Shown piece after piece: positions 4,185 through 9,104 of a stretch of DNA of 34,443 bases. The notes under the pieces were generated by a model. It worked only from the letters and a program-made list of their open reading frames with translations. It had not been told where the DNA came from and did not search any database. This stretch comes from an uncultured Clostridia bacterium (GTDB lineage Bacteria; Bacillota; Clostridia; Christensenellales; CALMFG01). Positions within the stretch are counted from its first letter, which is position 1. Every line of letters starts with the position of its first letter. The translations under genes and the position numbers were made by a program. Location: positions 1 through 34,443 of the forward strand of contig CALMFG010000193.1 in the NCBI GenBank assembly GCA_937863465.1, written 5' to 3'.

Positions 4185-6650
4185 TTAGATAAACAGGTTG
4201 GTATCGGCATTCTCGGCCGCCCCCAGATAGCTGGCTACGCCCGCGTATTCGATGCCGTCGATCAGCTCTTCTTTTTCAATGCCGAGGACGTCCATGCTCA
4301 TCGTGCAGGCCACCATCCGTACGCCCGCCGCTTTCGCGCTTTCAATCAGCTCGTCCAGCGAAGCCACGTTCTTTTTCTTCATGATGTATTTCATCATCAC
4401 GCTGCCCATACCCATCATGTTCATCTTGGAAAGGCCCAGGCGCTTGGTGCCGCGCGGCATCATGGCGCCGAACATGGTTTCCAAAAAGCCCTTCTTCACC
4501 TTGACCTTCTCATGCTTTCTTAAGATGTTCAGTCCCCAGAAGGTGAAGAACATGGTCACCTTGCGGCCCATCGCGGCGCCGCCGTTGGCGATGATGAAGC
4601 TGGCGATGGCTTTGTCCAGATCGCCGCTGAAGACGACCATGGATTTGTCGTTGCCTCTGGCCGCCGTATCGATTTCGCAGGCTTCGCCTTCGCATCCCTT
4701 TTGGATGAATACCGAATACGCGCCGTCCACTCTTTCGCCCCTGATGTAGGTGTTTTTGGTTCGTGCGCACCAGGCCGCCGCGTCGGTGAAGAAACCGGGG
4801 TCGGTGGACATGATGTTAATCACGTCGCCGTCCTTCGCTTTTTCCATGGCCGCGTACAGCTGCATGACCGGGCCGGGGCACTGCAGGCCGCGGGCGTCTA
4901 CCAAGATGGTATTATTCATATCTACTTTTTCGCTCATCACTTTATCCTTCTTCACGTTTTCCGCTTTTTTAACATCACCCTTCACGGTGAAGTCTTTGGT
5001 CACCACATTGTAGCTGGTGAAACCGCCCGCCAGATTGCGGACGTTCTTAAATCCGTTCTGTTTCAGGATTCGGCAGGCCGCGTGGGCACGGATGCCCACC
5101 GCACAGGTGACGACATAGTCCTTGGACTTATCGAGTTCACCGATGCGTCCGCGTAAATCGTCCACCGGGATAAGCACACTGCCTTCGATGTGGCCGTAGT
5201 CATACTCCGCATTGGTCCGAACGTCCAGAATCACCGTTTCCTTCGGAAGCCCCGCGAGTTCGGCCACCGTGATGTTGTCCTCCACGCCGCTTAAGATGTT
5301 CTCGCCCGTGAAGCCCGCCATGTTGACCGGGTCTTTGGCCGAGGAAAACGGCGGAGCATAGCAGAGTTCCAGTTCCTCTAAATCATAGACGGTGGCACCG
5401 AATCGTAAAGCGGTGGCGATGACGTCGATGCGTTTATCCACACCGTCGTAGCCCACAGCCTGCGCTCCCAGCACCTTGCCGTCCTTCTTATCGAATATCA
5501 CTTTCAGTGTCATCGGCATACCGCCCGGATAGTATCCCGCGTGGGATGCCGGATGCATGATGGTGACTTTATAATCCACGTTCAGCTTTTTGCCGGCCGC
5601 GTCCAATTGCTTTTGGTTAAGGCCGGTATTGGCCACGGTGAGGTCAAACACTTTGGCCACCGAAGACCCCTGCGTGCCGCTATAGGTGCGTTTCATGCCG
5701 GCGATGTTGTCCGCCGCCATTCTGCCCTGCTTGTTGGCCGGTCCCGCCAGCGGAATCATGCCCGGCTGTTTGGTATTAAAATCGGTAATCTCCACCGCGT
5801 CGCCCACCGCATAGATGTTCTTGTCCGAAGTGACCAGACTATCATCCACCACGATGCCGCCGCGCTTGTTGAGCGCAAGGCCTGCCGCTTTGGCCAGTTC
5901 GGAATTGGGACGCACGCCGATGGCCAGAATGACCAGATCGGCCGCCACTTCACGTCCGCTTTGGGTCTTGACGATGACCGAATCGCCGTCCGGCTCAAAG
6001 GAGGAAACACCGTCGCCGAGTACCAGCTTGACGCCCTTGTCGCTTAAATGCTTGTGCAGAATCTGTGCCATATCGTAATCCACCGGCGCCATCACCTGAT
6101 TCAGCATCTCGACGATGGTGACGTCCAGTCCGGCTTCGCGCAGGTTCTCGGCCATCTCGATGCCGATGAATCCGCCGCCGATGACCGCCGCGGTCTGGGG
6201 CTTGGCGGTGTCCATAATACCCTTGATGCGGTCCATATCCGGAATGTTCCAGAGGCTCAGAATCCGGTCATGCTCGATTCCCGGGATTGGAGGTTTTAAC
6301 GGAGAAGAGCCCGGAGATAATACCAGCGTATCATACTTCTCGGTATATTCCTTGCCGCCCCTGGTTTTGACAGTCACCGACTTTTTGTCGCGGTCGATGG
6401 CCACCACCTCGGACGAAACCCGCACATCCACGTTGAAACGCGCGTTAAAGCTTTCGGGCGTTTGCAGCAGCAGGTTATCCCGCTTGGTAATCGCGCCGCC
6501 CAAAAAATAAGGCAGTCCGCAGTTTGCAAAGGAGATGTACTCCCCGCGCTCGAACAGGATGATTTCGGCCTGCTCATCCAGTCTTCTTAAGCGTGCCGCG
6601 CAGCTTGCGCCGCCGGCCACGCCGCCTACAATCAGTACTTTCTTTGCCAT
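4185..6650 (-). CDS. CoA-disulfide/persulfide reductase fused to rhodanese, TusA and DsrE domains
   Basis: An 821-residue cytoplasmic fusion. Residues 1-320 are an FAD- and NAD(P)H-binding oxidoreductase (GGVAGG at 9-14, redox motif SFANCGLPY with Cys44, NAD site GGGFIG 158-163, FAD motif YAVGDA 280-285). Residues 330-445 are the dimerisation domain with the YAPP motif of CoA-disulfide reductases (431-434). Residues 460-550 are rhodanese-like with catalytic Cys516 (CAVGIR). Residues 580-652 are TusA-like with Cys591 in CPGP. Residues 668-821 are DsrE-like with Cys782. Each module handles thiols or sulfane sulfur, so the protein probably passes persulfide between cysteines and reduces CoA- or glutathione-like disulfides and persulfides. 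This multi-domain type is known in Firmicutes. The ATG has a GAGGG SD. Its neighbours encode a rhodanese lipoprotein and thioredoxin. Confidence 0.93.
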   Translation of the reverse strand: MAKKVLIVGGVAGGASCAARLRRLDEQAEIILFERGEYISFANCGLPYFLGGAITKRDNLLLQTPESFNARFNVDVRVSSEVVAIDRDKKSVTVKTRGGKEYTEKYDTLVLSPGSSPLKPPIPGIEHDRILSLWNIPDMDRIKGIMDTAKPQTAAVIGGGFIGIEMAENLREAGLDVTIVEMLNQVMAPVDYDMAQILHKHLSDKGVKLVLGDGVSSFEPDGDSVIVKTQSGREVAADLVILAIGVRPNSELAKAAGLALNKRGGIVVDDSLVTSDKNIYAVGDAVEITDFNTKQPGMIPLAGPANKQGRMAADNIAGMKRTYSGTQGSSVAKVFDLTVANTGLNQKQLDAAGKKLNVDYKVTIMHPASHAGYYPGGMPMTLKVIFDKKDGKVLGAQAVGYDGVDKRIDVIATALRFGATVYDLEELELCYAPPFSSAKDPVNMAGFTGENILSGVEDNITVAELAGLPKETVILDVRTNAEYDYGHIEGSVLIPVDDLRGRIGELDKSKDYVVTCAVGIRAHAACRILKQNGFKNVRNLAGGFTSYNVVTKDFTVKGDVKKAENVKKDKVMSEKVDMNNTILVDARGLQCPGPVMQLYAAMEKAKDGDVINIMSTDPGFFTDAAAWCARTKNTYIRGERVDGAYSVFIQKGCEGEACEIDTAARGNDKSMVVFSGDLDKAIASFIIANGGAAMGRKVTMFFTFWGLNILRKHEKVKVKKGFLETMFGAMMPRGTKRLGLSKMNMMGMGSVMMKYIMKKKNVASLDELIESAKAAGVRMVACTMSMDVLGIEKEELIDGIEYAGVASYLGAAENADTNLFI

Positions 6651-6890: not shown

Positions 6891-7631
6891 TTAATTGCTT
6901 TTCTGTGCCTGATAGGCTACCCAGGCCGTGATGCCGCCGTCCAGATTGGTCACGTTCATAAAACCATTTTCAACCAGAATCTGCGAGGCCACGATGCTTC
7001 GGTTGCCCGAATGGCAGTAAACCAGCACCGGGGTGTTCTTGTACTGCGCTATCTCTGAAATCCTGTTTTCAAGGTCATATACCGAGATCAGCGTTGCGCC
7101 GTCGATATGAACCTCGTCATATTCTTCCTGAGTGCGTACATCCAGAAGGAAGTAATCTCCGGTCATCGCCGCTTCAAAATCCGAAGGCCCGACGCTCCTG
7201 AAAACCGCCTGGTTCTCATAGGGCTTCACAACCAGAAGTCCCGTTTCGGTCGCACCGCCGTCGGTGGCACTCACTTCAAATTCGCCTTCCACCTTGGCTT
7301 TCACGTAAAGCGCCACGGTGTTGCTGTCCGAAGTGTTTTCGGCTTCGTAGCCCGGAACCGACAGGCTCACGCCCGCGGTTTCCCCGGTATAGATGATGGA
7401 AAGCTCTTCCCCGCGGTTGACCGAGATGCTGCTTTCGGAAAAGCCCTTCGCTATCTCAATCACCCGTATACCGTCTTCAATCTGTCCCGCTGTCTCGGCT
7501 TTCGCTGTGGGTTCTGCCGTGTTTGTGTTGTCCGCCGCAGCCATCGGCTGTGCCGCGCTCTGGCATCCCGCAAACAGCATGACCAGCACCAAAGCGGATG
7601 ACAGAATGATGATGCTCTTTTTTTTCAGCAT
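6891..7631 (-). CDS. Rhodanese-domain lipoprotein with cupredoxin-like N-terminal module
   Basis: A 246-residue exported protein. The signal peptide ends in the lipobox LFAGC with Cys23, so it should be tethered to the outer face of the membrane. Residues about 55-137 have the strand pattern of a small cupredoxin-like beta sandwich (ISVNRGEELSI...EGEFEVSA...GLLVVKP), but the His, Cys and Met copper ligands are absent, so this part is an inferred structural resemblance. Residues 145-240 are a rhodanese domain with LLDVRTQEEY and the active-site loop CHSGNRS, Cys206. Rhodaneses move sulfane sulfur from donors such as thiosulfate to thiol acceptors. It lies 12 bases after trxA, with its SD (AAAGGA) overlapping the trxA stop codon, so the two are translationally linked. 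Outside acceptor partners are unknown. Confidence 0.88.
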   Translation of the reverse strand: MLKKKSIIILSSALVLVMLFAGCQSAAQPMAAADNTNTAEPTAKAETAGQIEDGIRVIEIAKGFSESSISVNRGEELSIIYTGETAGVSLSVPGYEAENTSDSNTVALYVKAKVEGEFEVSATDGGATETGLLVVKPYENQAVFRSVGPSDFEAAMTGDYFLLDVRTQEEYDEVHIDGATLISVYDLENRISEIAQYKNTPVLVYCHSGNRSIVASQILVENGFMNVTNLDGGITAWVAYQAQKSN

Positions 7632-7643
7632 ATCATGTGTCCT

Positions 7644-7958
7644 TTACAGTGCCGAATCCAGCACTTTGGTGTAATAGGACTTGGGTCTTACGCCGATTGA
7701 AGAATCCACAATCTGTCCGTTCTTCATTAAGAATACGGTCGGGATGGACATCACCCCATAGCGCTGTACCAGTTCGGGTTCTTCGTCCACATTCACTTTA
7801 GCAATCACAGCTTTGCCATCGTATTCGTCCTTCAGCTCTTCCATCGTGGGAGTCAGCATTCTGCAGGGGCCGCACCATGCCGCCCAGAAATCTACCAAAA
7901 CAGGGGTATCGCTGCCCACCGTGGAATCAAAGTTTGATTTAGTCAAATTAATAGCCAT
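7644..7958 (-). CDS. trxA: Thioredoxin
   Basis: A 104-residue classical thioredoxin that reduces protein disulfides in the cytoplasm. The active site WCGPC is at 28-32 (Cys29 and Cys32), the cis-proline is in SIPT, and the length is that of a free-standing thioredoxin. It sits between a Crp/Fnr regulator and a rhodanese lipoprotein. Arsenate reductases of the type encoded just upstream (arsC) are recycled by thioredoxin, and thioredoxin also reduces persulfides, so the location fits both roles. The SD (AAAGGAT, within 7967-7973) lies eight bases before the ATG and is buried in a long predicted stem with upstream leader sequence, which suggests translational control. Confidence 0.96.
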   Translation of the reverse strand: MAINLTKSNFDSTVGSDTPVLVDFWAAWCGPCRMLTPTMEELKDEYDGKAVIAKVNVDEEPELVQRYGVMSIPTVFLMKNGQIVDSSIGVRPKSYYTKVLDSAL

Positions 7959-7966
7959 AATAAAAC

Positions 7967-8035
7967 ATCCTTTCTATCATAGGAAACCTGTTTCAATCGG
8001 GCATTCGCCCGATTCATTTTCTATGATGAAAGGAT
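7967..8035 (-). promoter_or_regulatory. Long leader stem-loop that sequesters the trxA ribosome binding site
   Basis: In minus-strand RNA, 8035-8021 pairs with 7982-7967 over 15 bp with one bulged A (7975). The 3' arm contains the trxA SD. Inside the loop is a second perfect 8-bp hairpin (8014-8007 with 8002-7995, four-base loop) and a possible 4-bp mini-hairpin next to the 3' arm. The stem is followed by GUUUUAUU and then the AUG. It could block translation, act as a weak terminator for the arsC-crp transcript, or both. It matches no riboswitch class I know. Confidence 0.65.
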
Positions 8036-8072
8036 ACTCTATCTGGCTTTAAATAAAAGTGATTTTGTCACA
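8031..8072 (-). promoter_or_regulatory. Candidate trxA promoter with Crp/Fnr-like site
   Basis: On the minus strand TGTGA, five bases, TCACT (8072-8058) forms an imperfect Crp-type palindrome whose spacer is one base short. TATCCT (8036-8031) lies where a -10 hexamer would be for an activator bound around -41. If used, transcription would start inside the 5' arm of the leader stem and the trxA SD would be free. This is a reading of spacing, with modest sequence support. Confidence 0.35.
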
Positions 8073-8086
8073 AAGTGTAACGAAGT

Positions 8087-8716
8087 CTATTTCAGCTGTA
8101 CTTTTCCCCGCTTAATTTCTAAAAGCCCCTGCTTTTCAAATTTCTTCAACTGACGGCTGACCACCTCACGCGAGGAGCCGATATCTCTGGCCATCATCTC
8201 ATGCGTGGCACTGACCGTATTGTTTTCGTCCGCGTTGTAATACAGGTAGTCGCTCAAGCGATCCTCGATGCTGGAAAAGTTCAGCATCTCGATGGCGCGC
8301 AGAGAGGCCACCAACTTATCGGCCAGTGCGTTGAAGATGTAGTTTTTAAACACATCGCTTTCGCTCATCAGCTGGCGAAACGCCTCGGGCGGCAGAACCG
8401 CCAGTTCGCAGTCCTCTTTGGCCTGTGCCGAAAAGTCATATTCAAAGTCGGCCAACGTGCAGATGGCCGCCAATACGCAGAGCTCTCCCTGATGCACGTT
8501 ATACACATTGATCTCGCGCCCATTCTCGGCCACACGGAACAGGCGTAAGGTTCCGGAGAGCAGCAGCGGCACGCCGTTGCACCGGCCGTTGTCGCCCATC
8601 ATCAGCTGGCCTTTGGGCAGTTTGCGCAAGCCCGCATATGCGACCAGCTTATCCAAATCCTTACCGTCCATCGAATCATAGAACGGGAATATCTTCAGGT
8701 CTTTTTTTTCAATCAT
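8087..8716 (-). CDS. Crp/Fnr family transcriptional regulator
   Basis: A 209-residue DNA-binding regulator. Residues 10-125 form the cyclic-nucleotide-binding-like beta roll, a long dimer helix spans about 120-148, and residues 150-205 are the Crp-type winged helix. The recognition helix reads SSREVVSRQL: Arg183, Glu184 and Arg188 match the three residues by which Crp reads TGTGA half-sites. There is no N-terminal Fnr iron-sulfur cysteine cluster. Four cysteines (46, 80, 86, 103) occur in the sensory domain, two in CVLAAIC, so a thiol or persulfide switch is conceivable but not shown. Its ATG overlaps the end of arsC by eight bases, implying coupled translation. It probably controls the surrounding thiol and sulfur genes. 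Confidence 0.92.
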   Translation of the reverse strand: MIEKKDLKIFPFYDSMDGKDLDKLVAYAGLRKLPKGQLMMGDNGRCNGVPLLLSGTLRLFRVAENGREINVYNVHQGELCVLAAICTLADFEYDFSAQAKEDCELAVLPPEAFRQLMSESDVFKNYIFNALADKLVASLRAIEMLNFSSIEDRLSDYLYYNADENNTVSATHEMMARDIGSSREVVSRQLKKFEKQGLLEIKRGKVQLK

Positions 8717-9104
8717 TTTTTATCCTGTCTATCAGGTCAATTACCCGGGCTTTAATCAAATCCCGTGTCGCCGCAAAATCCTCAATCGGGCCGCCCGAAG
8801 GGTCGTCCAGCCCCCAGTCCTCGCGGTGCTTGCAGGGCACAAAGGGACAGGCCACGCCGCAGCCCATCGTGATGAGGTAATCCAGCTCGCCCGGAATTGC
8901 GTCCAGCAGTTTGGGGTGCTGACCGCTGATGTCCACGCCGTCCAGCGCCATCGCCTCCACCGCCAAAGGCTTCACTTCGGGGTAATTTTCCGTTCCTGCC
9001 GAATAGGCGTCCATCACGTCCGCGCCCAATGCGCGTGCGTACCCTTCGGCCATCTGTGAACGGCAGGAGTTATGGGTGCATACAAACGCTACTTTTTTCT
9101 TCAT
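8709..9104 (-). CDS. arsC: Arsenate reductase of the low-molecular-weight phosphatase type, thioredoxin-coupled
   Basis: A 131-residue protein with the phosphatase-like loop CTHNSCRS (Cys9 nucleophile, Arg15) at the N-terminus and a C-terminal cysteine segment GCGVACPFVPC (Cys82, Cys86, Cys91) followed by WGLDDPSG. This is the layout of pI258-type ArsC, which reduces arsenate to arsenite through a cysteine relay and is regenerated by thioredoxin. In the staphylococcal enzyme the relay pair is 82 and 89; here the second partner could be 86 or 91. There is no arsB, acr3 or arsR in view, so it could act on another oxyanion or be a phosphatase. It overlaps the regulator gene by eight bases and lies 31 bases after telA. 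Confidence 0.9.
   Translation of the reverse strand: MKKKVAFVCTHNSCRSQMAEGYARALGADVMDAYSAGTENYPEVKPLAVEAMALDGVDISGQHPKLLDAIPGELDYLITMGCGVACPFVPCKHREDWGLDDPSGGPIEDFAATRDLIKARVIDLIDRIKND

Follow-up and report, generated by a model that had tools for sequence, protein, structure and literature searches.

A stem predicted to hide the trxA start on read-through RNA and its link to a Crp/Fnr-type promoter in a Clostridia bacterium

The crp-trxA locus and its promoter

The window analyzed here is a stretch of 34,443 nucleotides from an uncultured Clostridia bacterium, in which the thioredoxin gene trxA lies directly behind a gene for a Crp/Fnr-family regulator (crp), its immediate and co-directional neighbor on the minus strand. 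The genes of the locus are as follows:

8712-9104, minus strand: arsC (ORF list)
8087-8716, minus strand: crp, Crp/Fnr-family regulator of 209 amino acids (ORF; Pfam cNMP_binding and HTH_Crp_2)
7644-7958, minus strand: trxA, thioredoxin of 104 amino acids with a WCGPC motif (TIGR01068 above cut-off; PF00085)
6891-7631, minus strand: gene for a rhodanese-domain protein, downstream of trxA
4185-6650, minus strand: gene for an 821-amino acid CoA-disulfide reductase/rhodanese/TusA/DsrE2 fusion (domain matches)

In relatives, crp orthologs with 47-54% identity were found in the same order with trxA. Three cysteines (Cys46, Cys80, and Cys86) are invariant between the crp product of the window and six orthologs and may constitute a redox sensor based on thiols or a metal, while the presence of the 821-amino acid fusion in the trxA neighborhood suggests persulfide or sulfur-redox work. 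Convergent crp and trxA neighbors, with terminator-like hairpins after crp, were seen in many further genomes of the order (L058, L059, L065, L067, and others). This arrangement excludes read-through from crp into trxA, and the gene pair is kept together even so.

Between crp and trxA, we identified the elements of a promoter:

8059-8071, minus strand: Crp/Fnr-type box GTGACAAAATCAC, 15 nt past the crp stop codon; the same box and spacing occur before trxA in relatives
8031-8036, minus strand: −10 hexamer TATCCT, 22 bp after the box and inside the 5′ arm (8047-8021) of the stem described below
8023-8027, minus strand: predicted transcription start, most likely A8024, placed from the position of the −10

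A preliminary description of this DNA had noted the −10-like TATCCT, and we found that it belongs to a Crp/Fnr-type class II promoter with a 22-bp spacing. Crp/Fnr activators of class II promoters bind at a box centered at about −41. The layout GTGACAAAATCAC-N22-TATCCT places a palindromic box with its center at approximately −41 and the −10 at a fixed distance from it. Thus, transcription is expected to start near 8024, within the 5′ arm. The elements and their spacing are computed, whereas the start site and the binding protein are predicted. By its gene neighborhood, the product of the adjacent upstream crp is the most likely activator. The 15-nt gap from crp to the box, together with the lack of a predicted terminator, led us to infer that crp and trxA are cotranscribed.

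We searched 396 genomes of the order for the same pattern of box, 22 bp, and −10. It was found before many genes for thioredoxin, rubredoxin-like, desulfoferrodoxin-like, rubrerythrin, peroxiredoxin, and CoA-disulfide reductase proteins, all named from translated sequence motifs. The 22-bp spacing is fixed across the order, with TATTCT, TATAAT, or TATACT as the −10 in relatives, and six relatives carry the box, 22 bp, and TATTCT in the crp-trxA interval. Within the genome of the window, a GTGACAAAATCAC-type box also lies upstream of zwf (where it reads TTGTGACAAAATCACA and is followed by TATACT), rubrerythrin, and peroxiredoxin. Sites with the box, 21 to 23 nt, and a −10 (G000:C99:15403, C131:3566, C177:16315 and 16343, and C182:6707) precede rubrerythrin, zwf, and peroxiredoxin, among others. 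These sites likely make up an oxidative-stress regulon of the Crp/Fnr-type regulator encoded in the window.

A stem over the trxA start and its dependence on the RNA 5′ end

The RNA fold of the interval contains a long stem whose 3′ arm carries the ribosome-binding site (RBS) and start codon of trxA:

8021-8047, minus strand: 5′ arm of the stem, GCCAGATAGAGTATCCTTTCATCATAG (fold); shares bases with the −10; nearly all of it is missing from the promoter RNA
7954-7982, minus strand: 3′ arm of the stem, CTATGATAGAAAGGATGTTTTATTATGGC; holds the Shine-Dalgarno (SD) sequence, spacer, AUG, and codon 2, with A7975 and A7958 bulged
7968-7974, minus strand: trxA SD sequence GAAAGGA (sequence)
7995-8014, minus strand: inner 8-bp hairpin AATCGGGC-gaat-GCCCGATT (fold), near the 5′ end of the promoter RNA

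The preliminary description had reported a 15-bp stem (8035-8021 with 7982-7967, bulged at A7975) that buries the SD (7974-7968) and encloses a second, perfect 8-bp hairpin. We recovered both the stem and the hairpin (8014-7995), but the pairing continues for 12 further base pairs, several of them G-U, and reaches 8047/7954. The complete minus-strand stem therefore comprises 27 bp with two bulged adenosines (8047-8021 with 7982-7954), and it covers the start codon and codon 2 as well as the SD; A7958, the A of the trxA AUG, is one of the bulged residues. The region 7950-8050 folds with −44.2 kcal/mol, as compared to −18.1 ± 3.2 kcal/mol for dinucleotide shuffles (z = −8.1), and none of 200 such shuffles was as stable. 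Among 20 candidate ribosome sites in the window, that of trxA is the most occluded (22.7 kcal/mol), followed by a site with 13.2 kcal/mol, with a median of 6.0 kcal/mol. The duplex energy with the RBS was matched by only 4 of 20,000 shuffles of the region 8058-8025. A DNA search of the same genome found no second copy, which rejects a repeat or mobile element; the sole other recognizable match (74%) lies before zwf and spans the portion with the box and promoter. The inner hairpin (7995-8014) is possibly a stabilizer of the mRNA 5′ end. L044, L046, L195, and L185 also have a hairpin close to where the trxA mRNA is predicted to begin, with differing sequences.

We then computed the opening cost, defined as the free energy to open 20 nt from the SD to just beyond the AUG, for RNAs with various 5′ ends. 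RNAs starting between 8716 and 8047 required 20.0-22.8 kcal/mol, with 22.5 kcal/mol at 8047. The cost was 12.8 kcal/mol for a 5′ end at 8036, 6.9 kcal/mol at 8032, 3.2-3.8 kcal/mol at 8030-8027, and 7.4-7.7 kcal/mol at 8024-8015, so that the drop falls within the −10 hexamer. The promoter RNA from 8024 (7.4 kcal/mol) is near the window median of 6.0 kcal/mol; it is not fully open because of a local hairpin whose loop contains the SD.

These computed folds and energy differences are consistent with a promoter-gated translational lock, which would insulate trxA from read-through of its activator gene and which we consider probable. In this model, a Crp/Fnr-type protein, most likely the adjacent crp product, activates a class II promoter that belongs to trxA itself. 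The −10 of this promoter lies in an inverted repeat, within the 5′ arm, and the trxA RBS and start codon form the 3′ arm. Read-through RNA from arsC-crp would contain both arms, and its SD, AUG, and codon 2 would be buried; RNA from about 8024 would lack nearly all of the 5′ arm and be translatable. Thioredoxin output would then track the redox-activated promoter and not background transcription of crp. Both the read-through and its effect on translation are predictions of the model.

Occlusion of the trxA start in relatives

The preliminary description had proposed that translation depends on the promoter used, and had named loss of the pairing in relatives with the same gene order as evidence against this. 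We compared the occlusion of the trxA start in read-through RNA with that in promoter RNA across trxA leaders. The difference was 17.1 kcal/mol in L045, 16.0 in the window, 12.8 in L203, 11.9 in L044, 10.4 in L046, 8.3 in L042, 7.7 in both L047 and L038, and 5.9 in both L077 and L078. In the four remaining tandem leaders (L043, L192, L239, and L325), it was 1.0-1.9 kcal/mol. The refuting outcome did not occur: the occlusion is kept in 10 of the 14 tandem leaders, while 4 of the 14 are without the lock. A difference of at least 5.5 kcal/mol was found in these 10 tandem leaders as compared to 1 of 29 trxA leaders with the same kind of promoter and no crp directly upstream, whose median was 1.3 kcal/mol (Fisher 5e-6, with the 5.5 kcal/mol cut-off selected after the data had been inspected; Mann-Whitney p = 4e-5). 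Five of the tandem relatives are from a single family and hence not independent, and several relatives are metagenome-assembled genomes. The Mann-Whitney test gave p = 5e-4 without the window and two close relatives, and the tandem effect held after correction for leader length and GC (t = 5.6). L203, L204, and L212 had been scored as high or fairly high before their position behind crp became known. In comparison with upstream-shuffled controls, several relatives were individually weak (L044, L047, L077, and L078).

Five tandem leaders in which crp precedes a CoA-disulfide reductase gene showed no lock in the opening-cost comparison; thus, the lock is not automatic behind crp. A class-wide search for crp added few box-bearing tandem trxA cases and yielded mostly crp-CoA-disulfide reductase pairs without a lock. 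Two further leaders lie before other genes, named from their translated sequences. In L204 (G257), crp is followed by a 6-carboxytetrahydropterin synthase-like gene, with a read-through occlusion of 8.7 kcal/mol, and in L212 (G026) by a gene for a short rhodanese-like protein, with 4.4 kcal/mol. The occlusion in these two leaders suggests that the lock may extend beyond trxA.

In the tandem relatives, the read-through fold again hides the trxA start, by means of other sequences and registers, such as CCTTCCCGC/GCAGGGAGGG in L045 and TTTTTTGCC/GGCAAAGAA in L044. We evaluated the fit between the native arms with in silico chimeras of 13 tandem leaders, in which the leader of each species was joined to the upstream parts of the 12 others. 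The occlusion sum was 160 for the native combinations and 99 ± 11 for the chimeras (permutation p = 1e-5); the p value was 1e-5 without the window and 2e-5 without the window and two leaders of the same family. In the one alignable family, which has four sequences, the helix pairs in 85% of cells as compared to 43-55% when slid, and two pairs are altered on both sides, although four sequences cannot prove covariation; the signal is modest, with a shuffle control of 21 to 127 of 500. A single common conserved RNA structure was ruled out, as the registers differ between families and covariation in the alignable family is modest. The variation of the helix register between families explains why there is little classical covariation. 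In the model, what is conserved is the function and not one homologous helix. Together, the conserved class II layout, the computed enrichment of occlusion behind crp, and the computed native-arm fit support the dependence on promoter choice.

A long inverted repeat might also have grown without any function, as a by-product of template switching at a quasi-palindrome that was seeded by chance partial complementarity of the −10 TATTCTT with the SD AAGGATA. Such complementarity recurs in relatives through consensus alone, and the window, the sole genome of its own family in the comparison set, has no close relative there to show selection at the locus. However, the occlusion in L045 and L044 uses other sequences and registers, it is tied to the tandem order, and native arms outperform chimeras with the same −10 consensus. 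Complementarity between consensus −10 and SD cannot explain this native excess, because every chimera has the box and the −10. We therefore regard a functionless origin as unlikely.

Other readings of the stem and comparison with known systems

Next, we considered whether the 27-bp duplex in the read-through RNA might be an RNase III site, at which cleavage would separate and inactivate the trxA part. Duplexes of this length suit a double-strand RNase, and cleavage could act alongside the lock. In contrast, the helices of the relatives are shorter and broken, which makes this explanation quite improbable.

The preliminary description had also raised the possibility that the stem followed by GUUUUAUU ends the upstream transcript. 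A terminator or attenuator closing the crp transcript would fit the stability of the hairpin and the GUUUUAUU after its 15-bp part, but the complete 27-bp stem includes these bases in its pairing, and its foot is AU-rich with a large inner loop. The stem thus differs from the GC-rich hairpin with an unpaired U-run of an intrinsic terminator. Several lock-bearing relatives (L042, L044, and L045) have no U-run at this position, and a terminator scan of the minus strand between crp and trxA found none. The chance that the stem serves in termination appears very slim. The least credible reading is a ligand- or temperature-responsive leader (riboswitch or RNA thermometer), to which the SD within the stem and the inner hairpin would be suited, because the 5′ arm holds the promoter and the main mRNA is without that arm, the relatives share no conserved core, a stem of 20+ kcal/mol would not melt at ordinary temperatures, and an Rfam covariance-model search of the window at the gathering threshold detected tRNA only, in line with the earlier remark that the leader resembles no named riboswitch.

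Within the framework of the promoter-gated lock, we conclude that trxA is probably translated mainly from its own Crp/Fnr-activated promoter. A similar way of working has been described for gene e (lysozyme) of phage T4, in which longer transcripts started upstream fold the RBS into a stem, whereas a late promoter located in the DNA encoding the 5′ strand of the stem gives rise to efficiently translated transcripts that lack this strand, with a 100-fold effect (PMC3014915). The likeness to T4 gene e, and also to I-TevI, is that the computed stem sequesters the trxA RBS on the longer RNA and that the predicted trxA promoter has its −10 inside the 5′ arm, so that its RNA would be without the arm. 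In T4, timing is set by late promoters and a phage sigma factor. In contrast, trxA is a cellular gene whose class II promoter depends on an activator, and the neighboring crp is the source of the RNA that would be silenced. As no phage late promoter is present here, the trxA lock is similar to T4 gene e in its working and not a member by descent.

In IS10 and IS50, a fold covers the start of the transposase gene on RNA that reads in from outside, and it is absent from transcripts made by the element's own promoter. These elements resemble the trxA locus in that the transposase is protected from outside transcription, but they are mobile, have a constitutive weak promoter, and serve another purpose. 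With yeast long undecoded transcript isoforms, extension at the 5′ end goes with poor translation, and the productive isoform is made from a promoter farther downstream; this involves upstream ORFs and chromatin and no RBS pairing. We know of no described chromosomal example of an RBS lock with a promoter in its stem. Our literature search, which covered sources other than subscription journals and is thus no proof of absence, found the T4 system and no chromosomal case.

More tentatively, the trxA leaders could represent a recurring chromosomal insulation device, in which selection repeatedly builds an RBS lock wherever trxA lies directly behind its activator gene. The position of the promoter would be the key, the 22-bp spacer and the −10 would form the antisense arm, and the arms would have arisen or been remodeled several times across lineages. 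Such loci would have a simple signature that can be sought in any genome, namely an RBS stem with a promoter in its 5′ arm, located behind a co-directional gene.

It is commonly assumed that the genes of a bacterial operon are translated from any transcript that carries them. If the lock works, the choice of promoter would determine if one and the same coding sequence is translated at all, and an activator-dependent promoter would have a spacer that doubles as an antisense arm. At such junctions, read-through seen in transcriptomes would then say little about protein level, and the crp-trxA pair would be a clear-cut cellular equivalent of the T4 lysozyme switch.
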